Below, piece after piece: positions 8,972 through 32,375 of a DNA stretch of 38,308 nucleotides. The stretch covers positions 1 to 38,308 of the forward strand of contig WFQP01000039.1 of assembly GCA_015487015.1 (NCBI GenBank), read 5' to 3'. This stretch comes from Thiomicrorhabdus sp. GTDB lineage: Bacteria > Pseudomonadota > Gammaproteobacteria > Thiomicrospirales > Thiomicrospiraceae. A program made the translations under genes and the position numbers. Positions within the stretch are counted from its first letter, which is position 1. Every line of letters begins with the position of its first letter. The notes under the pieces were generated by a model. That model was not told the origin of the DNA and ran no database searches. It was given only the letters and a program-made list of their open reading frames with translations.

Positions 8972-9011
8972 GGTTTCCTTAGGTCTTGTACCGTCAGTCG
9001 TTATTTTTTTT
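8959..9011 (+). terminator. Possible terminator after the addB-like gene
   Basis: GACTGAC ... GTCAGTC arms followed by a T-rich run; loop is long (27 nt). Confidence 0.4.
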
Positions 9012-9220
9012 GTTGTAGATGAAGTGGCTTTATTCCTAGGGTTTTTTACAGGGGGGTTAGGTGTTAATATGCATGTTTATTGCATTTTTATAGGGGTTTT
9101 TGTAAACTAAAGGGGCTTGGAGAAATAAGAGTCGTCTCGAAAAATTACTTTTATTCTAGGACAAGCTTCTAACCAATCAATAGTTTGTATGTCATTAAAT
9201 TGTAATTTTAGGGGAAGAAA

Positions 9221-9835
9221 ATGAAAAAAGTAATTGGATTTTTAGCACTTGGCCTTTTTGTTTTTATGGGCTCTGCAAACGCTGCCACAGTCATAGACTT
9301 TGAAGATGCTTATGATGATTTAGGCTATACAGGGCAGCCAACAAATTATTATTCAGCGGATGGTTTAACAATAGGAGGCAATTATTTTGGTTTAATTGGA
9401 GGGGTTTTCCAAGGAGATCCAGGGAATTTTGACATTGATGGTACGAATGGCCCATCATCATTAGCTGTAAACACGATTGGTCATACAATAGATTTAATGT
9501 TTGATTCTGCAGTAAATTTAGATTTAGACTTTGGTGTTTCATTCGGTGAGACATCTAATGTAACGATTAGTTCCTATTTAAATGGTGGGCTGATAAATAG
9601 CTCTTTAAATACTTATACTGACACGATTAATAATGGTCTAGGAACTTGGTCAACGTTAAGTTGGTCAAACATTGACCGAGTAACGCTTAATGCCACAAGT
9701 GGATGGCGTGCTTGGTCGGTCGATAATCTTAGTATCTCTCCTGTGCCAGAGCCTAGTTCTATTGCTCTGATGTTAGGTGGTTTAGGGTTAGTTGGCTTCA
9801 TGGCGGCGCGTCGTCGTAAAGTAGGAGGCGCTTAA
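9221..9835 (+). CDS. PEP-CTERM sorting domain protein
   Basis: MKKVIGFLALGLFVFMGSANA signal; VPEPSSIALMLGGLGLVGFMAARRRKVGGA C-terminus. Confidence 0.87.
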   Translation: MKKVIGFLALGLFVFMGSANAATVIDFEDAYDDLGYTGQPTNYYSADGLTIGGNYFGLIGGVFQGDPGNFDIDGTNGPSSLAVNTIGHTIDLMFDSAVNLDLDFGVSFGETSNVTISSYLNGGLINSSLNTYTDTINNGLGTWSTLSWSNIDRVTLNATSGWRAWSVDNLSISPVPEPSSIALMLGGLGLVGFMAARRRKVGGA

Positions 9836-9865
9836 GTCGTTACCCGTTGTGTTGGTTTTTAATAG

Positions 9866-9898
9866 GGTGTTGGTTTGTATAAATCAACGCCTTTTTTT
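9866..9898 (+). terminator. Intrinsic terminator after PEP-CTERM gene
   Basis: GGTGTTGGTTT-gtat-AAATCAACGCC stem (with GU pairs) followed by T7. Confidence 0.7.
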
Positions 9899-9998
9899 AT
9901 GTTATAAAAAAGGTAAACTCATTTCTTTATAAATCCGCCCGCCACAGCTCACTGTTGTATAATTTTCCGATACTTTTCATTAATCGGTTTCCTCCCCC

Positions 9999-12900: not shown

Positions 12901-13610
12901 ATTGGCCAAAAGTCAGTCGTTTGCCAGTGGATCGAAAGCGAATCTATGGCACCCAAAAAGAGAACAATCCTTCATCAAGAACTGAAAAAGATAAAAGTAA
13001 TTTTACCGATAAAAATATGCTGGATTCACATGCCTTACTCAACACCTCCGTAGGCAACTTGGTACATGCCGTGTTAGAGCAGGTGGTGCAAGAGGGCATA
13101 CAAAACTGGCCAGAATTGCCCCAAGAAATCAAACAAAAACTGGCAGAACGCCAACCGTTTTACCAACAATGGTTGGAACAGCAAGGGCTTAAAGAACCAG
13201 AACTTTCACAAGCCATCGTGTCGGTTTTACGCTCACTTAATCATGCGTTGGGTAATACTAATATGCGCTGGGCATTGGATCATCAGCTGGGCGAATCCGC
13301 TGTAGAGTACCCGCTCACCTCTGTGAATGAAGAGGGTGAAGTAAGCCACCACATTGTGGATCGAACCTTTATCGATTCAGACGGCACTCGCTGGATTATT
13401 GACTACAAAACCAGCGTATTTGACGAACATAAAACCGACAATAAGGGGGGGGAGAAAATAATACGAGAGCAGTTCATCGAATACCAAATAACCCAATACC
13501 AACCCCAACTCGCCCGTTACGGAGAGCTGTTTTCTCAATTGGAAGATCGTCCTCAAAAATGGGTGTTGTACTTTAGTTATTTGGATGGTTGGGTTGAGGT
13601 GGGAGAGTAA
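9999..13610 (+). CDS. AddA/RecB-like UvrD-family helicase with C-terminal nuclease
   Basis: VQAPAGSGKTALLTQRFLALL, AMTFTKKAAAEMRDRI, LLVDEFQDTSSEQYALI, TMHKSKGLEFDTVILPGLG, DGTRWIIDYKTS. Confidence 0.92.
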   Translation: MSEHSPLSEKITPPCLTSLLGVQKDANLLDGDARFEAINPFESYIVQAPAGSGKTALLTQRFLALLSQVAQPEQIVAMTFTKKAAAEMRDRIMGALKMGVRIKEPPEGVNNFNTWQLAQRALLQDKHHGWHLLDNPNRLRIKTIDGLNSYLVGQMPLLSKMGAPSAILKKAEPAYQEAVNLTLNTSELETDLARLLRLVNGNFNRAQTLLVTMLQKRDQWMGSVLAYTGDEARDYLEQALEHIVSQELSQQVAHLSHVRSYLEEACEQANYAVQNDQPQLECLCGAWPLRDSLEDLEAWRTLADWLLTKDGSIRKRVTKNEGFVAGKGKAKEHKDQFLNALQSLKEAAYSQQVAESLVVLRGLPDPKYSDDQWEDLQSILSLLRVSAAYLKVVFQSMGQADFIETAQAATNALGNELEPTDLAQQLDYQIQHLLVDEFQDTSSEQYALIRKLVAGWQADDGRTLFIVGDPMQSIYRFREAEVGNFLNAWQGHLGQVRLNPIQLHVNFRSSQSVVDWVNEHFKKVFPSENQIEKGAVSYSASHSYHQNTEEEANFATPAVITHWEINQSHEDEAKAVVAQITQRLKAFQLDGDDDGKRIAVLGRTRSSLTGIARLLKQQQMPFRAVELESLNERQEVQDALALSRALLHLSDRAAWIALLRSPLVGLSLNDLYAIMGEDRRQAVWSLVALCLEAENVLSEEGQQRLMPVFPILQQALSRLGSLPFSVLVRETWLQLDGPQTVEQALALENVDVFFHTLAELDGQSLDFEQLSGLMDSLYARADSSPESQRIELMTMHKSKGLEFDTVILPGLGRKPRSDDTALVTWFQFMLAEQGGDFLEHEIEQIDTQSLERLVIAPLTQKGQDSSKLSQLLKRFESQKQTYEQGRLLYVAATRAKQQLHLFGQITVKESADSEKTFSPAINSLLETLWPCVENDFNHLIASYDFSQDNQLSLLENSEGLEGLEETGNWPKVSRLPVDRKRIYGTQKENNPSSRTEKDKSNFTDKNMLDSHALLNTSVGNLVHAVLEQVVQEGIQNWPELPQEIKQKLAERQPFYQQWLEQQGLKEPELSQAIVSVLRSLNHALGNTNMRWALDHQLGESAVEYPLTSVNEEGEVSHHIVDRTFIDSDGTRWIIDYKTSVFDEHKTDNKGGEKIIREQFIEYQITQYQPQLARYGELFSQLEDRPQKWVLYFSYLDGWVEVGE
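13445..13463 (+). repeat. Dispersed poly-G motif copy (G8AGAAAATAATA) inside the addA-like gene
   Basis: GGGGGGGGAGAAAATAATA, encodes GGEKII. Confidence 0.8.
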
Positions 13611-13671: not shown

Positions 13672-14463
13672 TTAGGGTGCTTTTTTACTTAATAGTAGTA
13701 GAAAAAACATGGTGGCGACCATGACGATGGCGGGGCCGGTGGGGAGGTCGGCTATGTAGGAGAGCCATAGGCCAATGAGTACGGATAGGATGGCGAGGAT
13801 AAGGCTGATCCAGAGCATTTTTTCGGGGGTGCTGGCGAGCCGTCTTGCAGCAGCGGCGGGGATGATGAGTAGTGAGGTGACGAGCAGTACGCCAACGATT
13901 TTCATGGAGAGTGCGATCATTAGGGCGAGCAGGAGAATAAATTGCAGTTGTACTTTTTTAACAGCGACTCCCTCTACATGTGCCAACTCAGGGTTAAGGG
14001 TGATGTTAAGTAGGTCTTGCCAGTGTCGTCGGTAAAAGAAAAAGATGAGTACGGCAATGAAGGCGATTAGGCTTAAGTCGGTGGTGTTGATGCTTAAAAT
14101 ATCACCAAAAAGATAGCTCATGAGGTCTATTTGTACGCTGTCTTGTAGGCTGATAATGATGAGGCCAAAGGCGAGGCTGCTGTGGGCTAAGATACCGAGT
14201 AGGGTATCGGATGAGAGTTGTTTGTAGTGGCTGAGTTGAAAAATAGCCCACGCAATGAGGAGTGAGACCACGACCACGGTTAGGGTGAGGTTGGTTTCTA
14301 AAAATAGCCCAATGCTGACGCCAAGTAGGGCGGAGTGTGCGAGGGTTGCGCCAAAATAGGACTGTCGTTGCCATACTACAAATACACCTAATGGTGCAGC
14401 GATGATGGCGAGTCCAAGGCCGCCAATGAGGGCGAGGGTCATAAATTCTGGAAACCATGCCAT
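13672..14463 (-). CDS. znuB: Zinc ABC transporter permease ZnuB
   Basis: ABC-3 permease composition (AAPLGVFVVWQRQSYFGATLAHSALLG); start at ATG 14463 (MAWFPEF), just downstream of the znuC stop. Confidence 0.88.
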   Translation of the reverse strand: MAWFPEFMTLALIGGLGLAIIAAPLGVFVVWQRQSYFGATLAHSALLGVSIGLFLETNLTLTVVVVSLLIAWAIFQLSHYKQLSSDTLLGILAHSSLAFGLIIISLQDSVQIDLMSYLFGDILSINTTDLSLIAFIAVLIFFFYRRHWQDLLNITLNPELAHVEGVAVKKVQLQFILLLALMIALSMKIVGVLLVTSLLIIPAAAARRLASTPEKMLWISLILAILSVLIGLWLSYIADLPTGPAIVMVATMFFLLLLSKKAP

Positions 14464-14464
14464 A

Positions 14465-15313
14465 TTAGCGTGCCTCTGACTTGTTAGGGGGAGGAGAAAT
14501 TTGGGTTTGACCGTGCGTGTGTTCGCAGGTGGAGTGGTTGTGGTGGTGCTCGTAGAGTGCAATCCCTTTAGGCGCACTGTTTAGGCCAGAAAATAGGGTT
14601 TGATACTCTGGGGATTCGCTGACATTTTTAGGGTGACCTGAGCAGCAGATGTGCTGGTTTAGGCAGAGCACTTGATCGGTGTGTTGCATGACGATATGCA
14701 GATCGTGGCTGACCATTAAGATGCCACAGCCGTATTGATGCCGAATTTGGTTAATGTACTGATAGAGCTCGGCCTGCCCTTTTAGGTCTACACCTTGCAC
14801 GGGTTCGTCGAGTACCAGCAATTCGGGTTCTCGAATAAGTGCTCTGGCGAGAAGGATGCGTTGCATTTCTCCCCCTGATACTTGTTGTATGGGTTGAGTT
14901 AGTAGGGCGGACAGGTTGAGTTCTTTGGTGATTTTTTCTAGCCTTGTGCTATCATAAGCCGCCGTAAAAAATAGGTTCTTGAGCTGTGCTTTAAGTGAGC
15001 TGCTTTTTTGTTGATTGGGCTTGAATCCCAGTTTTAAAAAGCGTTCGACCGACATGGGCAGGGTGGCATCAATTTGAATTTTTTGTGGCATAAAGCCAAT
15101 TTTGAGCCCTTTTTTAGTTTTGACATGCCCCGATGAGGGTGGGATTAAGCCAAGCAGTATTTTAAGCAGGGTGGATTTTCCTGCTCCATTGGGGCCAATA
15201 AGGGTCACAATCTCTTTGGCGTGAATGCGAAGTGAAACATGATTTAATACAGTTTTTTGGTCAAAGGTTTGGCTGATGTTGGTGGCTTCAATAAGGGGAT
15301 GTGTTGTGACCAT
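14465..15313 (-). CDS. znuC: Zinc ABC transporter ATP-binding protein ZnuC
   Basis: GPNGAGKSTLLKILLGL, VSGGEMQRILLARAL, LLVLDEPVQGVDLKGQ, His-rich tail. Confidence 0.9.
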   Translation of the reverse strand: MVTTHPLIEATNISQTFDQKTVLNHVSLRIHAKEIVTLIGPNGAGKSTLLKILLGLIPPSSGHVKTKKGLKIGFMPQKIQIDATLPMSVERFLKLGFKPNQQKSSSLKAQLKNLFFTAAYDSTRLEKITKELNLSALLTQPIQQVSGGEMQRILLARALIREPELLVLDEPVQGVDLKGQAELYQYINQIRHQYGCGILMVSHDLHIVMQHTDQVLCLNQHICCSGHPKNVSESPEYQTLFSGLNSAPKGIALYEHHHNHSTCEHTHGQTQISPPPNKSEAR

Positions 15314-15437
15314 TTGAGTCTCTATGAGGGATTCTGTTTAGGGTATTTTAGCGAGAATTTTAGGCTTAGGCGTAAAAGTTAGGAAATAAAGGGGTGGGGT
15401 ACGATGGTTTTTTGGAAAAAGTGGGTTGTTTTTGAGC

Positions 15438-16418
15438 ATGCTTAGGACTTGGCTGATTTGTGTGTTGGCTTTAGGTGGCTTATTTGGCGGCCTGCTAAGC
15501 AGTGCATCCTCTGCTTTTGCCGTGACGGTTACGGTCTCTATTCCACCTTTGGCGGGCATGGTAGCGCCTTTATTGGGCAAGGACGATCAATTGAATGTAT
15601 TGTTGAAGCCGGGCGTCTCTCCGCATGGGTTTCAGTTACGTCCCTCCCATTTACGTACCTTACAAAACAGTGATTTGGTGCTGTTTGTGGGCGGGGGCGT
15701 GGACGCTTGGATTGAGAAACCAGTTGAGTCGATGACAAAGCCGCATGTCAAAATGATGGCTTTGCCTGATTTAACTCGATTATCGGTTAGAGAGGGGGGG
15801 CTTTGGACAAAGAATGCCGATCGTGATACGCATGGTGACGGACATTCGCATGATCATGATGGGTACAGTGAAACCGATAATCATATTTGGTTGTCGTTGC
15901 CCAATGTAATATTAATGGTGCAAGCGGTTAGCAAACAGTTGCAATCACTTTTGCCGGAGCAAGCGCACGTGATTCAACGGCGTGAACAGCGTTGGTTGTC
16001 TACGTTACGAGCCACCGATCAACAGCTGATGCAGTTATTAGCCCCCGTTAAGGGTCAGCCGTTTTTGGTGTTGCACGATGCCTTTCAGTATTTTGAAGAT
16101 CATTATCAGTTGAAGGGGGTGGGAACGATTCGGTTAAACCCTGAGTTGCCCCCGAGTTTAAAACGGATTCATCAGTTGCGAGAGCAAATTAAAGCGGGCA
16201 AGGTTCGCTGTGTCTTTAAAGAACCCCAGTTTTCAGAAAAACGCTTGCAGGCGGTGATCTCTGGTTTGCCGATACGCGTGGGGTCGTTGGACCCAATGGG
16301 GCAGTTTGTTTTGCAGCGAACCCCTCAGCCTATTACCGATTATGTATTGTACGATGCCTTTTTAAAACAGATGGCTAATGCGTTTGTTGAGTGTTTGGCT
16401 GAGCGTAAAGGAAAATAG
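15438..16418 (+). CDS. znuA: Zinc ABC transporter substrate-binding protein ZnuA
   Basis: Signal peptide, HGFQLRPSHLRTLQNSDLVLFVG, His-rich loop DTHGDGHSHDHDG, NHIWLSL; divergent from znuCB; ORF could also start at 15426. Confidence 0.88.
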   Translation: MLRTWLICVLALGGLFGGLLSSASSAFAVTVTVSIPPLAGMVAPLLGKDDQLNVLLKPGVSPHGFQLRPSHLRTLQNSDLVLFVGGGVDAWIEKPVESMTKPHVKMMALPDLTRLSVREGGLWTKNADRDTHGDGHSHDHDGYSETDNHIWLSLPNVILMVQAVSKQLQSLLPEQAHVIQRREQRWLSTLRATDQQLMQLLAPVKGQPFLVLHDAFQYFEDHYQLKGVGTIRLNPELPPSLKRIHQLREQIKAGKVRCVFKEPQFSEKRLQAVISGLPIRVGSLDPMGQFVLQRTPQPITDYVLYDAFLKQMANAFVECLAERKGK

Positions 16419-16942
16419 ATGACTGAGCTGGCGTTAAATAAGCGTTGCATTGTGGTGACGGGATTACCCAGCAGTGGTAAAACGCGGGTGATTCAGGCGG
16501 CTTTAACGCAGTTACCCAGCTTAGCTAAAGAGGTGAGCCTGATTGAATCCACTGATGTTCGGTTGACTGAAGAAGAGAGTAGCCTCCTCAAGATCAATCA
16601 AGTTTGGTGTGGTTTTACTTCAAAGAAGGGGGGGGAATTAATTCCCCCCCCCCTATCGGCGTTGCAATTCTTCTCTTTTAAGGTGGGCAAACTCTCATTA
16701 GAGCATCTTTTATTTGGTTTGGACAGTTCAATACAGAACTTAGGCATGAAAATCGTTAGGGTGTAGGGGTTGTTGAAACCTTTGAGTATGTCAACTTAGT
16801 GGCGACTGAAGGCAGTATGCTCCGTTGGGATACCTTTGCAGCCAAACCCGAAGAGGTTGCGGGGACGCTGGTGATTGTGGGGATTGATTTGGAGTATTTT
16901 TGGTTGGAAGAGTTGGTGAATGCGAGCCTTTTACCTGGGTGA
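16419..16942 (+). pseudogene. Decayed CobW/G3E-family GTPase (P-loop remnant plus CobW C-terminal-like segment in another frame)
   Basis: VVTGLPSSGKT Walker A in ORF 16419-16766; after stop at 16764, a second frame reads VGVVETFEYVNLVATEGSMLRWDTFAAKPEEVAGTLVIVGIDLEYFWLEELVNASLLPG*, like a CobW C-domain; most of the G domain is absent. Confidence 0.65.
16628..16653. repeat. Head-to-head palindrome of the poly-G motif (G8AATTAATTC10)
   Basis: GGGGGGGGAATTAATTCCCCCCCCCC; perfect 24-bp palindrome at 16628-16651. Confidence 0.9.
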
Positions 16943-17062
16943 AAAATTGATATGCATTAGTGCGTACCAGCGGGGGTTTTGATGGTATCTTGTTGTTTTT
17001 TATCGGAAAAGGTGTGAAACTTCGTGCATCATTTTCAGTGGCTTTTAATGGACTTTTGGGTA

Positions 17063-17087
17063 ATATCCTACTAAAATGGTCGGATAT
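17063..17087. promoter_or_regulatory. Candidate IscR type-1-like operator upstream of suf
   Basis: ATATCCTACTAAAATGGTCGGATAT, 25 nt, matches the remembered ATASYYGACTRWWWYAGTCRRSTAT pattern at 21 of 25 positions by hand alignment; arms AATATCC/GGATATT perfectly inverted. Confidence 0.6.
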
Positions 17088-17132
17088 TAAAGTTTAGACA
17101 TAATTTAGATAAAAATGTAGGCGATTACGTGA

Positions 17133-18620
17133 ATGGTTGACGCAAAAAACATCAGCGAATTAGGTTCTTCTGACACGCAGTATCAAGAGATTAATGATCT
17201 GCTGGATAAGAATCAGCATTATAAAGAGGGTTTTTTCACCTCTACGCATGTTGAAACCTTTAAAAAAGGGCTGAATGAAGACGTGGTGCGTGCAATTTCT
17301 GCCAAAAAGAATGAACCCGATTGGATGTTGGACTTTCGTTTAAAAGCGTTTAAACATTGGCAAACGCTAGATGAACCTCATTGGGCAAAAGCGGAATACA
17401 CGCCGTTAGATTATCAAGATTACAGCTATTATTCTGCTCCTACCTGTGGTTCGTGTTCTGAGGATGGTGTAGAAGCAGAGATTGATCCAGAAGTTGCCAA
17501 AGCGTTTGCAGAGTTGGGCGTGCCGATTGCAGGCGATGACGCAAACATTGCTGTTGATGCGATTTTTGATTCCATTTCAGTCTCGACGACTAAACGCGAA
17601 GATTTAGCCGAATTAGGTATTATTTTTTGCTCTTTTTCAGAGGCGGTACAAGACTACCCCGAACTGGTGCAAAAATATATGGGTACAGTTGTACCGTATC
17701 ACGATAATTTTTTTGCAGCGCTTAATTCGGCTGTGGCCTCTGATGGTACGTTTGTTTATATTCCTGAAAACGTACATTGTCCCATTGATCTGTCAACCTA
17801 TTTTAGAATTAATGAAGCCAAAACAGGGCAGTTTGAGCGCACCATTTTAGTGGCCGATAAAGGCAGTTATGTGAGTTATTTAGAAGGCTGCTCTGCCCCT
17901 GTTAGAGATACCTATCAACTTCATGCTGCGGTGGTGGAAGTGATTGTATTGGACGATGCCGAAGTCAAGTATTCGACCGTTCAGAACTGGTACCCAGGTG
18001 ATGATGACTGCAAGGGTGGCATCTTAAATTTTGTGACCAAGCGTGGGATTTGTGAAGGTAAAAATTCAAAACTTTCTTGGACACAAGCGGAAACAGGTTC
18101 GGCCATTACATGGAAGTATCCGAGTTGTATTTTAAAAGGGGATAACTCCATTGGTGAATTTTACTCTGTAGCATTGACTAACCGTCGTCAGCAAGCGGAT
18201 ACGGGTACTAAAATGATTCACATCGGCAAAAATACTCGTAGCACTATTATCGCCAAAGGGCTTTCGGCCGGAAAGAGTGACAATACCTACCGTGGACTGG
18301 TTAAAATTTTACCCAGTGCAGAGGGTGCGAGAAACTTTACCCAGTGTGATTCGATGTTGATTGGAGATCAATGTGGTGCGCATACCTTTCCGTATATTGA
18401 AGTCGAAAACGCAACGGCTCAGGTGGAGCATGAAGCCACTACGTCTCGTATTGGAGAAGACCAGCTGTTTTATTGTAAGCAACGTGGAATCAGTGAGGAA
18501 AATGCGATTTCGATGATTGTAAATGGCTTTTGCAAAGAGGTCTTTAGTGAGTTGCCGTTGGAGTTTGCACAAGAGGCCGAAGAGTTATTGGCCATTAGTT
18601 TAGAGGGCTCGGTTGGGTAA
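17133..18620 (+). CDS. sufB: Fe-S cluster assembly protein SufB
   Basis: Full-length SufB pattern, e.g. [48 protein letters not shown]. Confidence 0.95.
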
Positions 18621-18681
18621 AGATTTACCTCCCTAGCTTAATCGTCTATAAGACATTTAACGTTTAAAAAAGTAGTGAACC

Positions 18682-19434
18682 ATGTTGTTAACAATTGAAA
18701 ATCTTCAAGCTGAAATTGATGAAAAACAAATTTTGAAAGGGCTTAATCTGGATATTAAGCCCGGTGAGATTCATGCCATCATGGGGCCGAATGGTGCGGG
18801 AAAAAGTACCTTAGCCAGTGTGTTGGCAGGAAAGGATGCTTATGAGGTAACAGCCGGTTCTGTCATGTTTGATGGTCAGGATCTATTGGAGTTAGGTCCT
18901 GAAGAGCGTGCACGTAAAGGGCTATTTTTAGCATTTCAATACCCGGTGGAAATTCCAGGGGTGAGTAATAAGCTGTTTATGCAAACAGCAGTGAATGCGG
19001 TGCGTGAAGAGCAAGGACTGCTTGCATTAGACATGTTTGATTTTGATGAATATGCAAAGGACAAAATTGAGTTGTTGGAGATGCGTCCTGATCTGCTGGA
19101 GCGCTCTGTGAACGTAGGCTTTTCAGGGGGGGAGAAAAAACGGAATGATATCTTCCAGATGGCTTTGTTACAGCCTAAATTGTGTATTTTAGATGAAACC
19201 GATTCGGGATTGGATATTGATGCGCTGCGTTTGGTCGCCAATGGCATTAATGCATTGCGTTCAGAATCGCGTAGTTTTATTGTGGTAACGCATTACCAAC
19301 GATTATTGGATTACATTAAGCCTGATTTTGTACATGTTTTATACGATGGAAAAATTATAAAATCAGGTGGCTTTGAGCTGGTACACGAGTTGGAAGAGCA
19401 TGGGTATGATGAGATTATTCAACAAAGTAAATAG
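18682..19434 (+). CDS. sufC: Fe-S assembly ATPase SufC
   Basis: GPNGAGKSTLASVLAGK, FSGGEKKRNDIFQMALL, LDETDSGLDIDAL. Confidence 0.96.
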   Translation: MLLTIENLQAEIDEKQILKGLNLDIKPGEIHAIMGPNGAGKSTLASVLAGKDAYEVTAGSVMFDGQDLLELGPEERARKGLFLAFQYPVEIPGVSNKLFMQTAVNAVREEQGLLALDMFDFDEYAKDKIELLEMRPDLLERSVNVGFSGGEKKRNDIFQMALLQPKLCILDETDSGLDIDALRLVANGINALRSESRSFIVVTHYQRLLDYIKPDFVHVLYDGKIIKSGGFELVHELEEHGYDEIIQQSK

Positions 19435-19454
19435 TCATAACACTTCGCATTGTT

Positions 19455-20867
19455 TTGAGCGTTAAGGAATTTTTGAACAAGATGTTAAAAAAGAATACCC
19501 GAAAAATTTCTCCGATGGCGAAAGCAGCCGTGAGTCACTATATTGAAGCCTCAGAGCAGTTAAATAAAGAGAGTGCTCAAGAAGAGGTGGTGGCTTGTCG
19601 TACACGTGCGCAAGCACTGTTGTTAACGCAAGCCTTTCCAACCTTGCGTGATGAAGCGTGGCAGTACACCAAATTAGTTCAGTTTGTTCAGAACCGTTTT
19701 GAGGTCGCTCATCTAACGCCTCAACAACATGGCTTAACGATCCGTGAAGTTCAAAGTTTTCTCCCCCCCTATCAGGCCATTAAACTTATTTTTGTGGATG
19801 GTGTCTTAGATAAGGCGCTTTCGGACGATTGTACCGCACTGCCAAAAGGGTTAAGTATTGAGTTTACGCGAGAGGCTGTTCAAAGCTCAAGTGAGGTTGA
19901 AGTATGGCTTGAACAGGAAGACTTGGTGAATTCCGAGCCATTTGGCGTGTTAAATAATGCTTTATTGGCGGAAGGGTTTGGGTTGAAAGTGGCTGAGAAT
20001 ATGGCCATTGAAACGCCTGTTTTTGTTTTAAATATACAAACGAAACTGAATCAAATCAGTGTGTTAAGTAACCGTGTTATGGTGGGAAAGAATGCCGAGC
20101 TGACCTTGGTTGAGCACTTTGTTACGCTGTTAAATGAAGCTGAGCAGGAGGGTGTGGAAGCTTGTACCAATGTGGTGACGGTGATGGATATTGCAGAATC
20201 TGCTCGTGTGCGTCAGGTGGTATTACAGCAACAGTCCGATTTGGGCTATTACTTCCATAATCAGTTTATTTTTCAGTCTGAACAAAGTGACTTTAATTCC
20301 TTTTACGGTGGCTTAGGTAGCCAGTTATCTCGCCACCAAAATCATCTGTTTATGAATGGTGAGCGGATTGAAAACTCCCAAAATAGTGCCTGTTTGGCGC
20401 ATCAAAAACAGCTGGTAGACTCCCGTACAAATACTCAGCATACGCAGGAGTGGGGTGCGAGTCGTCAACTGCATAAGTTTGTGTTAGCGGATTCAGCCGT
20501 GGGTGTTTTTGATGGCATGATTGGTGTAGCAAGAGCAGCGCAAAAAACTGATGGGCAGATGGATAATAAAAATTTATTGCTCTCCAATACGGCCAAAATG
20601 AACAGTAAGCCTCAGTTAGAAATTTATGCGGACGATGTAAAGTGTTCGCACGGTTGTGCAACGGGACAGATTAACCAAGATCAAATCTTTTATTTGCAAG
20701 CGCGTGGCATTTCAAAGCCAAAGGCGACTGAGATGATTACCAAAGCCTTTTTGATGGAGTCTGTAGAGACCATTGATCGAAAGGATATTCAACAGTGGGT
20801 GGCTCAGGAATTTTCGGAAGCTTTGTTGTCGGGTGCGTATTTTAAAACAGATACAGCGACGGAGTAG
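19455..20867 (+). CDS. sufD: Fe-S cluster assembly protein SufD
   Basis: KPQLEIYADDVKCSHGCATGQINQDQIFYLQARGIS. Confidence 0.93.
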   Translation: MSVKEFLNKMLKKNTRKISPMAKAAVSHYIEASEQLNKESAQEEVVACRTRAQALLLTQAFPTLRDEAWQYTKLVQFVQNRFEVAHLTPQQHGLTIREVQSFLPPYQAIKLIFVDGVLDKALSDDCTALPKGLSIEFTREAVQSSSEVEVWLEQEDLVNSEPFGVLNNALLAEGFGLKVAENMAIETPVFVLNIQTKLNQISVLSNRVMVGKNAELTLVEHFVTLLNEAEQEGVEACTNVVTVMDIAESARVRQVVLQQQSDLGYYFHNQFIFQSEQSDFNSFYGGLGSQLSRHQNHLFMNGERIENSQNSACLAHQKQLVDSRTNTQHTQEWGASRQLHKFVLADSAVGVFDGMIGVARAAQKTDGQMDNKNLLLSNTAKMNSKPQLEIYADDVKCSHGCATGQINQDQIFYLQARGISKPKATEMITKAFLMESVETIDRKDIQQWVAQEFSEALLSGAYFKTDTATE

Positions 20868-20878
20868 GATTTAGGATA

Positions 20879-22108
20879 ATGTCAGATATGCAATTAGACT
20901 TTGCTCAAATTCGAGCCCAATTTCCAATTTTAGATCAAATTGAAAATGGCCAACCACTGGTCTATTTAGATAACGGTGCCACGTCCCAAAAACCGTTGTG
21001 TGTGATTGAGAGTATTGATACCTATTATCGTTTGCAAAATGCTAATGTACATCGCGGTGTGTATGGCCTGAGTGAACGCGCGACTGAGCTGTATGAGGGT
21101 GCACGAGAAACTGCACGAACGTTTTTAAATGCGCGTTCGACCAAAGAAGTGGTGTTTGTTCGTGGCACAACTGAGGCTATTAATTTGGTGGCGCAAAGTT
21201 GGGCAAGAGCCAACTTAAAAGAGGACGATGAAGTCATTGTGACGGAGATGGAGCACCACTCCAATATCGTACCGTGGCAGTTATTACGAGATCAGTTGGG
21301 GATTCGCTTAACCGTTTTAAGAATCAATCAAAAAGGCGAAGTGTGCTTAAACGCGCTAAAAGGTTTGGTGTCTGAAAAAACCAAATTGCTAGCGGTGACG
21401 CATATGTCCAATGCATTAGGCTCGATTAACCCAATTAAAGAGATGGTCGAAATTGCACACTCTGTGGGGGCAAAAGTTTTAGTCGATGGCGCGCAAGCCA
21501 CACCGCATATGGCGGTGGATGTGCAAGATTTAAATTGTGATTTTTATGCACTTTCAGGGCATAAGATGTATGGCCCTACGGGCATTGGTATTTTGTATGC
21601 CAAAGAAGCTTTACTGGAAGCAATGCCACCTTATCAAGGTGGGGGCGATATGATCTACTCCGTGACCTTTGAGAAAACCGAATACAATGTATTGCCGTAT
21701 AAGTTTGAAGCGGGCACACCCCATATTGCGGGTGCGATTGGCTTAGCGGCGGCTATGAATTTTTTAAATGAGATTGGCTTGGATCGTATTGCGGCCTATG
21801 AAGCTGAATTATTGAGTTATGCCACCGAGCAGTTGAAGCAAATTGATGGCTTACGCATTATCGGCGAAGCGGAACAGAAAGGTGGGGTCATCTCGTTTGT
21901 GATTGATGGCATTCACCCACATGATATGGCCACACTTATGGATCAAGAGGGTGTCGCTGTTCGAGCGAGCCATCATTGTGCGATGCCCGTTATGCAGCAT
22001 TTTAATGTGCCAGCTACGGTACGTGCCTCATTTGGTGTCTATAATAATCTGGATGATATTGACCGCTTGGTTTCAGCAATTGAAGAAGCTAAGGCAATGT
22101 TGTTGTAA
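20879..22108 (+). CDS. sufS: Cysteine desulfurase SufS
   Basis: YLDNGATSQKP, HRGVYGLSERATELYEGAR, ALSGHKMYGPTGIGILY, RASHHCAMPVM. Confidence 0.95.
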   Translation: MSDMQLDFAQIRAQFPILDQIENGQPLVYLDNGATSQKPLCVIESIDTYYRLQNANVHRGVYGLSERATELYEGARETARTFLNARSTKEVVFVRGTTEAINLVAQSWARANLKEDDEVIVTEMEHHSNIVPWQLLRDQLGIRLTVLRINQKGEVCLNALKGLVSEKTKLLAVTHMSNALGSINPIKEMVEIAHSVGAKVLVDGAQATPHMAVDVQDLNCDFYALSGHKMYGPTGIGILYAKEALLEAMPPYQGGGDMIYSVTFEKTEYNVLPYKFEAGTPHIAGAIGLAAAMNFLNEIGLDRIAAYEAELLSYATEQLKQIDGLRIIGEAEQKGGVISFVIDGIHPHDMATLMDQEGVAVRASHHCAMPVMQHFNVPATVRASFGVYNNLDDIDRLVSAIEEAKAMLL

Positions 22109-22733: not shown

Positions 22734-23465
22734 TTACTTAGTGACCAGTTGTTGTTTCTTTTTAGCACGTCTTGCAGCGCCAAACATCATTAAGCTGCCT
22801 AAGCCTAGTAGTGCAAGAGTAGATGGTTCGGGTACTGGAGATACCGCCTCTGCCATTGGTTCAGCAATTACAAAGGCACCTGTGGTTAAGTGTTGTACAG
22901 AGCTTGCCTGGTTGAAGGTGATGGAGCTGGTGCTGCGAGAGTCAGCAGTTCCAACCCATGAGTCGGCTTCTAACAGCTCGGTCAGAGTTGTAGAGGTCTC
23001 AATGTTGTAATCTGTACTGAAGTTGAGTTCTAATTTTGTTTCGGCATTGTTTTCAAAAAAGGCAATGCTGAGTCTATCACTTCCTGGTGTAAGGCCGTCA
23101 TAGCCAGGAAGCAGTTTAAGGTAGGCACTATCCGCCCCGATTCCATCAGAGATAAAATGAGTGACATCACCGCTTACGCTTGTATAGGTAATATCCCAGT
23201 CTGTTATGTTGTATTCGATGGATGAAAAGATGGGGGAGAAAGACTCATTAAATGATGGCGAGTCAAGGTCGGTTGTAAAGGTTCCGCTCAAACTACCATT
23301 AATGCTGTCATTAAGAGAGGGGCTACTGATTCCACCAGTAAGAGTAAATTCTTCGTAAGGTGTGGCGTGAGCTATTTGTGGCAGTAGAAAAGAAGACAGG
23401 ATAATTGTGCTTCTTAGCCCAATGGTTAAGGTTTTTTGATAAGCATTCCGCATTTTTAGAAACAT
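22734..23465 (-). CDS. PEP-CTERM sorting domain protein
   Basis: Signal peptide; VSPVPEPSTLALLGLGSLMMFGAARRAKKKQQ C-terminus. Confidence 0.87.
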   Translation of the reverse strand: MFLKMRNAYQKTLTIGLRSTIILSSFLLPQIAHATPYEEFTLTGGISSPSLNDSINGSLSGTFTTDLDSPSFNESFSPIFSSIEYNITDWDITYTSVSGDVTHFISDGIGADSAYLKLLPGYDGLTPGSDRLSIAFFENNAETKLELNFSTDYNIETSTTLTELLEADSWVGTADSRSTSSITFNQASSVQHLTTGAFVIAEPMAEAVSPVPEPSTLALLGLGSLMMFGAARRAKKKQQLVTK

Positions 23466-23652: not shown

Positions 23653-25029
23653 ATGAAAGATCAGGTAAAGCAAATACATTTTGTAGGCATCGGTGGTGTT
23701 GGAATGGCGGGGATTGCTGAGGTGTGTTTAAACCTTGGTTATACGGTGAGTGGTTCTGATCTTAAACATAATAAGACGGTTGCACGGTTAGAGTCTTTAG
23801 GGGGGTTGATTCAGCTAGGGCATGAGGCATTGCATGTGAAGCAAACTGATGTGGTAGTGGTTTCAACGGCTATTGGAGAAGGAAATCCTGAGGTAAGTTG
23901 GGCGAAAGAAGCGCGTGTTCCTGTGATACCTCGTGCAGAAATGTTGGCTGAGTTAATGCGTATGCAATTTGGTATTGCCATTGCAGGTACACATGGAAAA
24001 ACGACAACGACGAGTCTTGCTGCGGCCATTTTAACGCAAGGAGGAATGGATCCAACGTTTGTCATTGGAGGAAAGCTTAATCAGGTGGGAGCTAATGCAC
24101 GACTGGGTACCAGTCGTTATTTATTGGCGGAAGCGGATGAATCGGATGCCTCTTTCTTGCATCTCTCGCCCATGATGTCAGTGGTGACCAATATTGATGA
24201 AGACCACATGGAAACTTACCAAGGGGATTATCAAAATTTAGAAAATACCTTTGTGGAGTTTATTCACCGTTTGCCTTTTTATGGTGAAGCGATTATGTGT
24301 ATTGATGATGATAATGTACGTGCAATGCTGCCTAGGCTGGCTCGAAAATTCAGTACCTATGGCTTTATGGAGGAGGCAGATGTTCGTGCCATTAATGTTG
24401 AAGCCAGTGGGCTTCAGATGAATTTTCAGGTGTTAGTGGGGCGTGAACAAAGTTTTGATGTGATATTGAATACCCCAGGCCATCATAATGTATTAAATGC
24501 CTTGGCCGCGATAACCATTGCATTAAAGTTGGATGTTTCTATTGAGGCGATTCAACAAGCCTTGCTTGAGTTTGGCGGGGTTGGACGACGTTTTGAAGTG
24601 TATCCTAATCGTAAAATTGGCCATGCGAATGTTACGTTGGTGGATGATTATGGACACCATCCGACAGAGCTAATAGCCACGATTAAAACGGCAAAAGAAG
24701 CGTTTCCAAATCAGCGTTTGGTATTGGTATTTCAGCCACATCGTTATAGTCGAACCCGAGATCTGTTTGATGAGTTTGTTCAGGCGCTGCTTATGACTGA
24801 TTTAGTTGTTTTAACGGAGGTATATTCTGCCGGAGAGGCGCATTTACCTAATTTTGATTCGAAAGCCCTGTTGCAAGCATTACGAGTACGGGGTGGGGTT
24901 GGTTTTTTTGCAGAAGACTTGGAGCAATTGAATGTTATTACGGAAGAAATTTTGCAAGATGATGATGTTTTATTGCTCATGGGAGCCGGTGATATTGGTC
25001 AAGTTGCCAAGCAGTGGAAAGGCGACTGA
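23653..25029 (+). CDS. murC: UDP-N-acetylmuramate--L-alanine ligase
   Basis: HFVGIGGVGMAGIAEV, AGTHGKTTTTSL, DDYGHHPTELIATI, FQPHRYSRTRDL. Confidence 0.96.
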   Translation: MKDQVKQIHFVGIGGVGMAGIAEVCLNLGYTVSGSDLKHNKTVARLESLGGLIQLGHEALHVKQTDVVVVSTAIGEGNPEVSWAKEARVPVIPRAEMLAELMRMQFGIAIAGTHGKTTTTSLAAAILTQGGMDPTFVIGGKLNQVGANARLGTSRYLLAEADESDASFLHLSPMMSVVTNIDEDHMETYQGDYQNLENTFVEFIHRLPFYGEAIMCIDDDNVRAMLPRLARKFSTYGFMEEADVRAINVEASGLQMNFQVLVGREQSFDVILNTPGHHNVLNALAAITIALKLDVSIEAIQQALLEFGGVGRRFEVYPNRKIGHANVTLVDDYGHHPTELIATIKTAKEAFPNQRLVLVFQPHRYSRTRDLFDEFVQALLMTDLVVLTEVYSAGEAHLPNFDSKALLQALRVRGGVGFFAEDLEQLNVITEEILQDDDVLLLMGAGDIGQVAKQWKGD

Positions 25030-25047: not shown

Positions 25048-25956
25048 ATGAATTTTGGTAAGGTTGCAGTATTAATGGGAGGGCCAGCTGCGGAAAGGGA
25101 GGTCTCCTTAAACAGTGGCAAAGCCGTTACGCGAGCATTAAAAAATCAAGGTATTGATACAACAGCTGTAGATGTGAATACGTTGCATGATTTGGTTGAG
25201 GTTGCAAAACACTACGATCGTGCTTTTATTGCGTTGCATGGTCGCTGGGGAGAGGATGGGGTGGTTCAGGCGATTTTAGATGACCTAAAACTTCCTTATA
25301 CTGGCAGTGGTGTTGCGGCTTCTGCTATTGCGATGGATAAGTTAAGAACCAAGTTGCTTTGGCTGGGGGCTGGGTTGAACACTCCCAAATTTATTTGGGT
25401 CTCTGAGCAGGCTCCTTTAGATATGGAGGGCTTTTCAATTCCTTTTCCCGTAATTGTAAAGCCATCAAGAGAAGGTTCCAGTATTGGAATGCGTAAGGTT
25501 GAGAATATTTCACAGCTTGAAGAGGCGGTGGTGTATGCACAGAAGTATGACTCTGACGTTTTGGTGGAACAGTGGATTACAGGACGAGAGTATACCGGAG
25601 CGGTTTTGAACGGGGATGCATTGCCGCTGATTGAATTAAAGACATCGCATGATTTTTATGATTTTGATGCGAAGTATTGTTCGAATGATACGCAATATCT
25701 TTGTCCGTGTGGATTGGACTCTGAATTTGAAAGCGAACTTAAATCATTGGTGTTACAAGCCTTTAGTGTAATTGGTGCAGTGGGTTGGGGGCGAGTGGAC
25801 TTTATGTTAGATGATCAAAATACCCCGTGGTTAATTGAGCTGAATACAGTACCGGGTATGACGGATCACAGCCTGGTTCCTATGGCAGCACAAGCGGCTG
25901 GATATTCTTTTGAGCAGTTAGTGGTTGACGTTTTATTATCGACTAAAGAGGCATGA
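25048..25956 (+). CDS. ddl: D-alanine--D-alanine ligase
   Basis: VLMGGPAAEREVSLNSG, KPSREGSSIGM, WGRVDFMLD, ELNTVPGMTDHSLVP. Confidence 0.95.
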   Translation: MNFGKVAVLMGGPAAEREVSLNSGKAVTRALKNQGIDTTAVDVNTLHDLVEVAKHYDRAFIALHGRWGEDGVVQAILDDLKLPYTGSGVAASAIAMDKLRTKLLWLGAGLNTPKFIWVSEQAPLDMEGFSIPFPVIVKPSREGSSIGMRKVENISQLEEAVVYAQKYDSDVLVEQWITGREYTGAVLNGDALPLIELKTSHDFYDFDAKYCSNDTQYLCPCGLDSEFESELKSLVLQAFSVIGAVGWGRVDFMLDDQNTPWLIELNTVPGMTDHSLVPMAAQAAGYSFEQLVVDVLLSTKEA

Positions 25957-26018: not shown

Positions 26019-26711
26019 GTGATTAAACGGCGTAGCTTGGTTATTTTGGTTGTTATTTTCTTAAGTGCATGGGGCATCTCTTGGTTGTTTAGTGATAAAG
26101 CCTCTCCGCTTTTTAAACCGATTGAACACTATGAATTAGCCGGCGACTTACATTTTCTTCAAGCAGAAGAGGTGGATCAGGTTTTAAGCCATTACTTTGG
26201 TGCCTCTTTTTGGCAGGTGGAGTTGGACGTGATTCAGTCAGAGTTGGTTCGCCTAGAGTGGGTGAGTCAGGCGGTGGTAAAGCGACACTGGCCCAATCGG
26301 CTTTATGTTGAGGTTGAGGAGCAAGTTCCCGTGGCTCGTTGGGGAGGTGCCGGTTTAATTAATCAAGTGGGAGTTGTTTTTTTTCCAAAAGAGCGTACTG
26401 GGTTTGACCAGTTGATCTTATTGGAAGGTGAACGAGAGGATGCAAAAAAGATATTAAGTGCGTTGGCTCTTTTTCAAGAAACATTAAGTTCTATTGGGTT
26501 TACGATCTCGTCTTTGAGGCATCAGTTAGACGGCGTTTGGAGGATAACACTGGCGAATGGATCTGAAATTGTTTTGGATTCTAAGGAGTATGGTCATAAG
26601 TTAGAGACCTTTGTTGCGGCTTACCCTCAGCTTGTAAAGACGTTGAGAAAGTCAGCACAAGTGTATGATTTACGCTATAGTAACGGTTTTATTGTGGGGA
26701 AAACACAATAA
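26019..26711 (+). CDS. ftsQ: Cell division protein FtsQ (GTG start)
   Basis: Single N-terminal TM, POTRA-like region, VSQAVVKRHWPNRLYVEVEEQVPVARWG. Confidence 0.9.
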   Translation: MIKRRSLVILVVIFLSAWGISWLFSDKASPLFKPIEHYELAGDLHFLQAEEVDQVLSHYFGASFWQVELDVIQSELVRLEWVSQAVVKRHWPNRLYVEVEEQVPVARWGGAGLINQVGVVFFPKERTGFDQLILLEGEREDAKKILSALALFQETLSSIGFTISSLRHQLDGVWRITLANGSEIVLDSKEYGHKLETFVAAYPQLVKTLRKSAQVYDLRYSNGFIVGKTQ

Positions 26712-26782
26712 TTGAATTGAGCTTTTTGTCCTGACTCATGCAAAGGTCTCTTATCGGTTTTTTAAAGAAGGTAATACAGAGT

Positions 26783-28030
26783 ATGGCGCGAAAACAGCAA
26801 GCTTCTAATATGGTCGTTGGGTTGGACATTGGAACCTCAAAAATTGCTGCGATTATTGGGAAGATAAAATCGGATGGTGAAATTGAAGTCGTTGGAATGG
26901 GTACACACCCTTCGAAAGGCTTAAAGAAAGGGGTTGTGGTTAATATTGACGCAACCGTTGAGTCGATTCAGCACGCTATTGATGAAGCAGAAAGAATGTC
27001 AGGGTTTACAGCCAGCTCTGTGTATGTGGGCATCGCGGGCAGCCATATTAAAAGCTTTAATTCAAATGGTATGGTCGCCATTCGAAATCAAGATGTGCAG
27101 CCAGATGATATTGATCGTGTGATGGAAGCCGCACAGACTATTGCAATCCCCGGTGGTGAGCGTGTTTTGCATATTTTATCGCAAGAGTACATTATTGATA
27201 ATCAGGGTGGTATTCGTGAGCCAATTGGTATGTCAGGTGTACGTCTTGAGGCCAAAGTACACATGGTGACGGGCTCAGTAAGTGCTGCACAAAATATTAT
27301 TAAGTGTGTGGAACGTTGTCATTTAGGCGTTGCGGATATTATTCTTGAGCAGCTAGCCTCCAGTGAGTCGGTGCTGTCGGAAGATGAAAAAGAGTTGGGT
27401 GTTTGTTTGGTAGATATTGGCGGGGGCACCACGGATATTGCTGTTTTTCAAAATGGTGCCATTCGGCATACAGCGGTTATCTCTGTGGCGGGAGATCAGG
27501 TTACAAATGATATTGCCGTTGCATTTCGAACACCCACCCAAGCGGCAGAAAATATTAAAAAACAGTATGCTTGTGCTCTACCTCAGTTAATTGATAAAGA
27601 TGAAGAGATTGAAGTGCCGAGTGTGGGAGATCGCCCAGCTCGTTGCTTGTCAAGACGAACACTGGTTGAAGTGGTTGAACCTCGGTACGAAGAGTTGTTT
27701 CAGTTGATTCAGGCGGAGTTACGCAGTGCGGGGTTTGAAAATATCTTGGCAGCAGGAGTCGTATTGACGGGGGGGAGTTCTTTGGTAGATGGTGCGGTTG
27801 AGCTAGCAGAAGAGGTATTTCACATGCCCGTCCGCTTGGGATACCCTCAGGGCGTAAGTGGTTTAACAGACGAGGTGAATAGTCCTTCGTTTGCTACCAC
27901 AGTGGGGTTGTTGATGTATGCAAAAGAACATTTTGGTGGTGTTTTAGCCGAAGAGCCAGAAAAAACAACCTCAATGGGTGTTATGGATATTTTTGATCGA
28001 ATGCGAAACTGGTTTAAGTCGAGTTTTTAA
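26783..28030 (+). CDS. ftsA: Cell division protein FtsA
   Basis: VVGLDIGTSKIAAIIG, VDIGGGTTDIAVF, VVLTGGSSLVDG; C-terminal amphipathic helix FDRMRNWFKSSF; start at internal ATG preferred over 26738. Confidence 0.93.
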   Translation: MARKQQASNMVVGLDIGTSKIAAIIGKIKSDGEIEVVGMGTHPSKGLKKGVVVNIDATVESIQHAIDEAERMSGFTASSVYVGIAGSHIKSFNSNGMVAIRNQDVQPDDIDRVMEAAQTIAIPGGERVLHILSQEYIIDNQGGIREPIGMSGVRLEAKVHMVTGSVSAAQNIIKCVERCHLGVADIILEQLASSESVLSEDEKELGVCLVDIGGGTTDIAVFQNGAIRHTAVISVAGDQVTNDIAVAFRTPTQAAENIKKQYACALPQLIDKDEEIEVPSVGDRPARCLSRRTLVEVVEPRYEELFQLIQAELRSAGFENILAAGVVLTGGSSLVDGAVELAEEVFHMPVRLGYPQGVSGLTDEVNSPSFATTVGLLMYAKEHFGGVLAEEPEKTTSMGVMDIFDRMRNWFKSSF

Positions 28031-28126
28031 TTATCCTTGTTTAACTTATTCGAATATAAAAGTAGCTTAATCAGTTATGCTAAAATAGCTTTTTGAGTTG
28101 ATGTATACAAAAAAGATGGAACGCCC

Positions 28127-29050
28127 TTGAATCAGAGAACAGTTGCAAATCAAATTAAAGCCAAAGGCATTGGGTTACACACTGGACACGAGTCAGTAAT
28201 GACGTTAAAGCCCGCTCCTGTCAATACAGGAGTGGTTTTTCGTCGTATTGATTGTGATCCAGTGGTTGAATTTAAAGTCTCTCCTGATATTGTTGGAGAG
28301 ACGATGTTGTGTACAACCATTGTAAAAGAACAGAAAAATCAAAAGGTTAAAATTGCAACCATTGAACATTTAATGTCTGCTATTGCGGGTATTGGAATCG
28401 ACAACCTTTATATTGATATTACCTCGGATGAAGTGCCTATTATGGATGGCAGTGCGTCTCACTTTATTTTCTTATTGCAATCAGCAGGCATTAAAATTCA
28501 GGATGCCCCTAAAACATTTGTAAGAATCTTAAGCTCAATCCGTGTTGAAAATGATAAGGGTGGTTTTGCTGAGTTTAAACCACATGAAGGGTTTCGATTA
28601 AATTTTTCAATTGATTTTGAGCACCCCGCATTTCAAACAACCGCTGAAAAAATGACGTTAAATTTTTCGTCAACATCGTATTTTAAAGAAGTGAGTCGTG
28701 CGCGTACATTCGGTTTTATGAAAGATATGGAGATGCTGCGTGCTAAAAACCTAGGCCTCGGAGCCAGTTTAAAAAATGCCATTGGTTTAGATGATGAAGG
28801 GGTCATGAACGCAGAAGGGTTGCGCGATAAAGATGAATTTGTGCGTCATAAAATTTTAGATGCCGTAGGGGATTTGTATATGTTGGGTCACCCTATTGTC
28901 GGTGAATTTACTGCTCATAAATCAGGGCACGCATTAAATAATCAACTTTTACGAGCCTTAATGAAGCAAAAAGACGCGTTTGAGCTGGTTACTTATGAAA
29001 ATGATGGTAACCAACCTATCCGTTATGGCAGCAGTAAAGTTTTGTTATAG
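28127..29050 (+). CDS. lpxC: UDP-3-O-acyl-N-acetylglucosamine deacetylase (TTG start)
   Basis: NQRTVANQIKAKGIGLHTGHESVMTLKPAPVNTGVVFRR, EHLMSAIAGIGIDN, MDGSASHF. Confidence 0.95.
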   Translation: MNQRTVANQIKAKGIGLHTGHESVMTLKPAPVNTGVVFRRIDCDPVVEFKVSPDIVGETMLCTTIVKEQKNQKVKIATIEHLMSAIAGIGIDNLYIDITSDEVPIMDGSASHFIFLLQSAGIKIQDAPKTFVRILSSIRVENDKGGFAEFKPHEGFRLNFSIDFEHPAFQTTAEKMTLNFSSTSYFKEVSRARTFGFMKDMEMLRAKNLGLGASLKNAIGLDDEGVMNAEGLRDKDEFVRHKILDAVGDLYMLGHPIVGEFTAHKSGHALNNQLLRALMKQKDAFELVTYENDGNQPIRYGSSKVLL

Positions 29051-29648: not shown

Positions 29649-32375
29649 ATGGCCTTTAAAATCTTTCAAAAAATCTTTGGTAGTCGTAATGAACGAATGC
29701 TTAAGCAATACCGTAAAACCGTACAACAAGTCAATGAATTAGAAGCCTCCATGGCTGAATTGACGGATGAGCAGTTACAGCAAAAAACGCCAGAATTTAA
29801 AGCGGCGATTGAATCTGGAAAGACACTGGATGAACTTTTGCCTGAAGCCTTTGCTGTTGTTCGAGAAGCCGGTAAACGTGTGTTTGGTATGCGTCATTAT
29901 GATGTTCAGTTGATTGGTGGAATGGCACTGCATGAAGGCCGTATTGCAGAGATGCGTACAGGAGAGGGAAAAACCCTTGTTGCAACGTTACCCGTTTATT
30001 TGAATGGACTGTCGGGCGAAGGGGTGCATGTTATTACGGTCAATGACTACCTTGCCAAACGTGATTCGGAGTGGATGGGAAAACTATTTGAGTTTTTAGG
30101 GTTATCAACAGGTGTTATTTTAAGTGGTCAATCTCAAGAAGAGAAGCAGTTAGCGTATTCAAAAGATATTACTTACGGAACCAATAACGAGTTTGGTTTT
30201 GATTATTTGCGTGACAATATGGCCATTTTTACCTCTGAAAAAGTTATGCGAGGTCAACCGTTTGCCGTTATTGATGAAGTGGATTCTATCTTAATTGATG
30301 AAGCACGTACGCCTTTAATTATTTCAGGGCCAGCGGAAGATAAAGCCGAACTATATCAAAAAATTAATCCATTAATTCAGCACTTAGAGCAGGGTGAAGA
30401 GGATAAAGAACTAAAAACATCTTCAGGTGATTTTACGATTGATGCAAAATCAAAACAGATTTACTTAACTGATCAAGGTCATGCCAAGGTCGAAGAGTTA
30501 TTAGCTGAGGTAGGTTTGCTTGATGAGGGCGATAGCCTTTACGATGCAACTAATATTGGATTAATGATTCATATTAATGCTGCATTGCGTGCTAATTTAT
30601 TATTTGAAAAAGATCGTGACTACATTGTTGAAGACAATGAAGTGGTCATTATTGATGAGTATACGGGTCGTAAAATGGCCGGTCGTCGTTGGAGTGAGGG
30701 GTTACACCAAGCGATTGAAGCGAAGGAAGGCGTTAAGATTCAACAAGAGAGTCAAACGTTTGCTTCGATTACCTTTCAAAATTACTTTAGACAGTACAAA
30801 CGTTTATCAGGTATGACAGGAACCGCAGATACCGAAGCGGGTGAGTTTTTATCTACCTATAACTTAGAAGTGGTAGTTATTCCACCAAATAAAGAGCCAC
30901 AACGTCAAGATTTAGCCGATTTAGTTTTTTTAGATATTGAAGGAAAGTTTGCCGCCATCGTAAAAGAAATCAGCGAGGTGACCAAAACACAACAGCCCAT
31001 TTTAGTGGGAACCGCCTCGATTGAAATGTCTGAGCTGTTATCTGACTTATTAAACAAAGCAGGGGTGAAGCACTGTGTTTTAAATGCTAAACACCATGAA
31101 AATGAAGCGCATATTATTGCCAATGCAGGGATGCCGGGAGCGGTTACCATTGCGACCAATATGGCTGGGCGTGGAACGGATATTGTTTTAGGGGGAAGCT
31201 TAGAGGTTGAGTTGTCTAAACTCAAAGACCCTACGGAAGATAAAATAGCCGAAGTAACCAACGCTTGGCAAGCACGACACGATGCCGTATTAAGCCACGG
31301 AGGGTTAATGGTGATTGGTTCGGAGCGTCATGAATCTCGCCGTATTGATAACCAGTTACGTGGTCGTTCGGGTCGTCAAGGAGATCCTGGGCTTACTCGT
31401 TTTTACCTGTCGTTAGACGATGATTTAATGCGTCGTTTTGCGTCTGAAAAAGTAAAATCCATGATGAAGCGTTTAGGCATGACATCGGGTGAAGCGATTG
31501 AGCATAATATGGTCAGTAAATCCATTGAACGAGCACAAAAACAAGTGGAACGTTTGCATCAAGATGAGCGTGCGAACTTATTGAAATTTGATGACATTTC
31601 TAATGAACAACGTAAAGTGGTTTACACTCAACGTAATGAGTTGATGGAATCGGACGATGTATCTGAAGTGTTGGATGATTTGCGTGCTCAAGTTGTTGAA
31701 CAATTAGTTGCTACTTATATTCCAAAAGGGTCTTTGGCAGAGCAGTGGGATATTCCTGGCTTAACCCTAGCGATTCATGAAGAGCTGGGTACAGAGTTTG
31801 ATATTCAAGCTTGGTTGGATGAAGATAAAGAGCTTTATGAAGAGACCTTGATTGAAAAGTTGGTGACAGAATTAGAAAACATCTATGCCACTAAAATGTC
31901 AGTGGTGAACCCAGAAACACGCCACCATTTTGAAAAAGAAGTGCTGTTACGTACCATTGATAAAAAATGGCGTGAGCATTTAGGTGAAATGGACTATTTA
32001 CGTAAGGGAATTCATTTAAGAGGCTATGCTCAAAAAGACCCGTTCCAAGAGTACCGTCGTGAATCGACTGAGATGTTTAAAAGCTTCTTACAAGAAGTGA
32101 TGTTTGAAACGGTTAAAGTATTGTCTTTGGTTCAAATTGAAGGGGCAAAAGATGTGGATGAGTTTGATGAACAAAATGCTGCTGAGCGTCCTAAAGATTT
32201 AGAAGCAACGCATCCAGAAGCGGCAGGAATGGCTTCGACATCGAATGCAACGCATCCAGAAGCGCAGTCAGGTGATACTACATTTAAAAGAGACACGCCA
32301 AAGGTGGGACGTAATGATCCTTGCCCTTGTGGGTCTGGCAAAAAGTATAAGCAGTGTTGTGGCAAGTTAACGTAA
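29649..32375 (+). CDS. secA: Preprotein translocase ATPase SecA
   Basis: [52 protein letters not shown]-terminal zinc motif [16 protein letters not shown]. Confidence 0.98.

Follow-up and report, generated by a model that had tools for sequence, protein, structure and literature searches.

Few gene neighbourhoods are as well conserved as the ftsA-ftsZ pair, the linkage of which is often attributed to the balancing of FtsZ and FtsA from one transcript. In the window, i.e., the whole stretch of 38,308 nucleotides analysed here (C39, a contig from a draft genome of Thiomicrorhabdus with 144 contigs and 85% completeness), ftsA is followed directly by lpxC and no ftsZ lies between them. This raises the question of where ftsZ is, how the junction arose, and what sets the amount of FtsZ in such a genome. 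A first-pass annotation of the window had left two options, namely that ftsZ had moved or that the assembly had lost about 1.2 kb.

The ftsA-lpxC junction and the place of ftsZ in the genome

The window carries the 3' half of the split dcw cluster on the forward strand, opened by murC at 23653–25029 (TIGR01082, 539 bits) and continued by ddl at 25048–25956 (NF002378, 392 bits), ftsQ at 26019–26711 (NF008043, 97 bits, which is under the curated cut-off, with position considered as well), ftsA at 26738–28030 and, with a TTG start, lpxC at 28127–29050. The first-pass annotation had described FtsA as complete and lpxC as normal, and both descriptions held, as FtsA gave a full match to TIGR01174 (494 bits) and the intact lpxC a match to TIGR00325 (356 bits). 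The conserved 3' neighbour secA was found at 29649–32375 (forward strand), while znuB, znuC, znuA and sufB, sufC, sufD, sufS (13672–22108) lie 5' of murC, all assigned with NCBIfam. Immediately preceding znuB, the window has an addB/addA-like pair (6119–13610; TIGR03623 and an AddA/RecB-like helicase), at a site that is occupied by lgt-thyA-folA in genomes G003 and G009. The window also encodes three proteins whose C-termini carry PEP-CTERM-like sorting signals (121–789, 9221–9835 and 22734–23465).

The 96 bp that separate ftsA from lpxC (28031–28126, forward strand) are non-coding, as first reported: they contain no ORF and no FtsZ match, and no FtsZ remnant was found when one was sought there. 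An extended -10 motif, GTTATGCTAAAAT, is present inside this gap and is kept as GTTGTGCTAAAAT in two near relatives (L061 and L062), which makes the gap the probable promoter region of lpxC, with GTTATGCTAAAAT as the putative -10. The longest ftsA-lpxC gap of the family (approximately 710 bp, in G016, locus L249) has no ORF of at least 60 aa.

The full genome was searched for FtsZ, as the first-pass annotation had proposed, and the gene was found on two other contigs. The PF00091 search returned one FtsZ, at the end of contig C122, and a full-length FtsZ query located the other half of the gene at the end of contig C85. Since the two ends have exactly the same 151 bp inside ftsZ, C122 and C85 were considered neighbours, and the gene is complete across both. 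The resulting order is mraZ-rsmH-ftsZ-ftsL-ftsI-murE-murF-mraY-murD-ftsW-murG-SDR-MCP-lgt (gene names by NCBIfam on G003; ftsL and murD named by position and similarity), in which the ten dcw genes from mraZ to murG follow each other as expected, with ftsZ among them; the window holds the other half (murC to ftsA, lpxC). In G003, G009, G020 and G024, both halves were found on one contig and on the same strand, separated by MCP, lgt, thyA, folA, znu and suf genes, the znu/suf stretch thus preceding murC as it does in the window.

Distribution in the family and a second lineage

The comparison covered 63 genomes from 7 genera of the Thiomicrospiraceae, mostly sulfur-oxidising bacteria and the single family of the order as sampled. 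Wherever both genes could be measured (60/60 genomes), rsmH directly precedes ftsZ, with 86–224 bp between the domain matches. The first-pass annotation had also suggested a synteny check, in case close relatives keep ftsZ at the original site; none of them does, as all 60 genomes with ftsA and lpxC on one contig, single-contig assemblies included, show ftsA directly before lpxC without ftsZ. Outside the family, ftsZ comes right after ftsA in 130 of the 132 gammaproteobacteria for which both genes were among the matches listed, in agreement with the earlier statement that this order is nearly constant in the class. As the class-wide sample consisted of the best 150 matches per list (FtsA and FtsZ), very divergent genomes are under-represented in it. 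Set against this base rate among the matches listed, the missing ftsZ after ftsA is far from chance. Taken together, the compared gene orders establish, at the level of sequence, that ftsZ was relocated and that its new place became fixed throughout the family. Of the two initial options, the move was the correct one, with an intact ftsZ elsewhere in the genome and the same junction in all testable relatives. A search of the literature, largely of papers available without subscription, found no prior report of such a relocation in Thiomicrospiraceae.

Nine genomes of the class sample with 97–100% completeness (G028, G084, G096, G102, G108, G148, G163, G244 and G249) had no FtsZ match, a possible consequence of masked stretches or bin losses; in three of them (G102, G148 and G244), FtsA scored over the curated cut-off.

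Compared with the canonical dcw cluster of the E. coli type (mraZ ... ftsQ-ftsA-ftsZ, then lpxC), the family has the same genes, on the same strand and in the same order bar one, as well as a promoter with MraZ-type repeats before mraZ, but its ftsZ does not follow ftsA and lies between rsmH and ftsL, and several genera are additionally split between murG and murC. The extent of this split differs: in g17 and g20 (G041, G043 and G057) the cluster is contiguous, ftsZ lies between rsmH and ftsL, and ftsA follows 13–14 kb downstream, in g1, g18 and g22 the distance from ftsZ to ftsA is about 28–58 kb, and in g21 the dcw halves lie far apart or on opposite strands. Because the contiguous cluster of g17 and g20 already has ftsZ at its 5' end, the move is older than the split. 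On the reading preferred here, ftsZ shifted in the Thiomicrospiraceae ancestor within a contiguous dcw cluster from between ftsA and lpxC (3' end) to between rsmH and ftsL (5' end), and a later break between murG and murC in several genera, including Thiomicrorhabdus, left ftsZ and ftsA some 28–58 kb apart or unlinked.

Both exceptions among the 132 outside genomes, G142 and G238, are members of a single family (f81) and have the order ftsZ-mraZ-rsmH-ftsI...ftsQ-ftsA-lpxC; ftsZ-mraZ-rsmH was found in each of the five f81 genomes whose FtsZ match was good (G142, G238 and G269–G271). Like the Thiomicrospiraceae, f81 has ftsZ at the dcw 5' end behind 10-bp-spaced GTGG-type repeats, which stand directly 5' of ftsZ (G142 and G238 have them in a regular form, the remaining three genomes in a looser one), and lpxC after ftsA (in the two f81 genomes read across the site). 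Unlike them, it has ftsZ before mraZ and not after rsmH, an FtsZ without the two loop deletions described below, and a cluster that is contiguous in G142 and G238, where several Thiomicrospiraceae genera are split. The nearest named FtsA to f81 is that of 'Thiotrichales bacterium SI047_bin108' (83%). A tree of MurC, FtsA, LpxC and SecA placed f81 apart from Thiomicrospiraceae, and a joint clade of the two was not rejected in the AU test (p = 0.116). Two independent relocations are likely, as the ftsZ positions differ and the FtsZ deletions are not shared. In the f81 relative L129 (JABHVM010000088.1), neither ftsZ nor lpxC was found within 3.3 kb after ftsA (after 11227), and G238 encodes a second, divergent FtsZ-like protein (G238:C28:44766-45206; 334-aa frame, PF00091 70 bits).

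The control region before mraZ

At its new site, ftsZ is the third gene (mraZ-rsmH-ftsZ) behind a promoter that, in the genome studied, is near consensus (TTGACA-17-TATAGT), and the -10 box of which is overlapped, then followed, by 10-bp-spaced AGTGG repeats. TGGG triples, the MraZ operator pattern tried first, gave no match before mraZ. In each of the 15 family loci that were read, at least 3 evenly spaced GTGG repeats with a 10-bp period overlap or follow the promoter before mraZ, the arrangement looked for in an MraZ-controlled operon, and 12 of the 15 have the strict form AGTGG-N5-AGTGG-N5-AGTGG, which occurred neither elsewhere in approximately 0.47 Mb of sequence nor in shuffles. The repeats look like a candidate MraZ operator and agree with MraZ sites as described elsewhere, which are direct repeats located in the mraZ promoter, such as AAAGTG[T/G] in Mollicutes and the MraZ boxes of E. 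coli (PMC8475190). What the first-pass annotation missed is that the move is old and family-wide, that the new site is the promoter-proximal end of the cluster, and that a candidate MraZ-type operator lies there.

Between rsmH and ftsZ, no conserved terminator was found (3/38 loci vs. 2.1 expected) and no strong or conserved promoter was seen in the gap of the 38 loci, a scan of which gave weak promoter-like matches in only 5. We therefore infer transcription of ftsZ from the mraZ promoter, a reading against which count the rsmH-ftsZ gap, as long as about 120 bp in some family members, and the weak promoter-like matches within it. MraZ would bind the repeats and control the operon, ftsZ included, so that the FtsZ level would follow MraZ autoregulation, uncoupled from FtsQ and FtsA on another transcript, and the relocation probably alters the control of FtsZ abundance. 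Overall, we consider an ancient relocation of ftsZ inside the dcw cluster, which would have brought it under promoter-proximal MraZ control, the probable explanation, its regulatory step being predicted from the arrangement of genes and repeats.

The closest functional parallel is the mraZ-mraW-MG_223-ftsZ cluster of Mycoplasma genitalium, where ftsZ likewise stands close behind mraZ and mraW (rsmH), a few genes downstream, repeats of the MraZ-site type are found in the mraZ promoter, as in Mollicutes generally, and MraZ represses ftsZ, the expression of which rises upon MraZ loss (PMC8475190). Mollicutes, however, are unrelated, wall-less bacteria with a reduced four-gene cluster, and theirs is not a move inside a complete one. 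The family, which includes free-living cultured bacteria, has been without the ftsA-ftsZ link since its common ancestor, and together with f81 it offers natural strains in which linkage, ratio and MraZ control could be told apart, as well as a specific candidate target of MraZ in bacteria that have a cell wall.

Alternative origins and the FtsZ protein

The relocation could also be real and neutral for regulation, i.e., a chance rearrangement after which ftsZ uses its own promoter and MraZ has no special part. The dcw clusters of other lineages do break up and lose genes (PMC8871954, PMC9395523), and the weak promoter-like sites 5' of ftsZ in 5/38 loci point the same way, but chance does not readily account for an rsmH-ftsZ junction that persists in 7 genera, including those with an otherwise fragmented cluster, for a gap devoid of a strong or conserved promoter, or for a second lineage with ftsZ directly behind operator-like repeats; we regard this alternative as somewhat unlikely.

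The protein itself bears on whether the gene is native. The FtsZ of G003 scored over the curated equivalog cut-off of TIGR00065 (392 vs. 295 bits), the copy of the genome studied has the GGGTGTG signature, and the GTPase domain is complete in the FtsZ of the family. The C-terminal tail, to which FtsA and ZipA bind in E. coli, reads YLDIPAFLRRQAD in most genera (YLNIPSWIRKQAN in g17 and LDIPTFLRRQAD in g20), and because this tail is kept, FtsZ and FtsA should still meet in the Z-ring. In alignments to FtsZ of solved structure (8h1o and 2vaw, among others), the family FtsZ lacks 3 residues (ITK before GLGAG in 8h1o) and 2 residues after FE in FEGKKR. Both deletions were present in all family FtsZ read, and the full-length TKGLGAG and FEGxKR loops, which are common in FtsZ and not definitional, are thereby absent; both shortened loops presumably adjoin the nucleotide (GTP pocket). 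Among the outgroup FtsZ read, L232 has the first type of deletion only and L097 the second only. A more far-reaching proposal, which we hold as tentative, is that both lineages independently put ftsZ behind an MraZ operator, that MraZ would set the FtsZ dose directly, and that the FtsZ GTPase would have been re-tuned in Thiomicrospiraceae.

Such an unusual FtsZ, with two loop deletions, an N-terminal extension and, in many members, a longer linker, could suggest that a foreign ftsZ, inserted after rsmH, took the place of a native gene that had been lost. The best matches outside the family are, nevertheless, gammaproteobacterial, with approximately 60% identity over the whole protein including the tail, similar to FtsA (about 63%), and none of the outside FtsZ read has both deletions, which makes such a replacement quite improbable. 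A related gammaproteobacterial ftsZ copy may have replaced the native gene at the new site, a point against the relocation reading preferred here. The remaining first-pass option, that assembly collapse or deletion removed approximately 1.2 kb, including ftsZ, between 28030 and 28127, as the draft state of the genome and the near-universal ftsA-ftsZ adjacency in the class (among the matches listed) might suggest, is rejected, given the complete ftsZ on C122/C85 and the same junction in 60/60 testable relatives, several of them single-contig.

Within the genus of the window, a subclade (G011, G013, G020, G024 and G065) has an FtsA only about 46–50% identical to that of the window, with LpxC near 75–80%, as well as an FtsZ whose linker is much longer and whose tail ends in RRQKD; FtsA and FtsZ may have changed together there.
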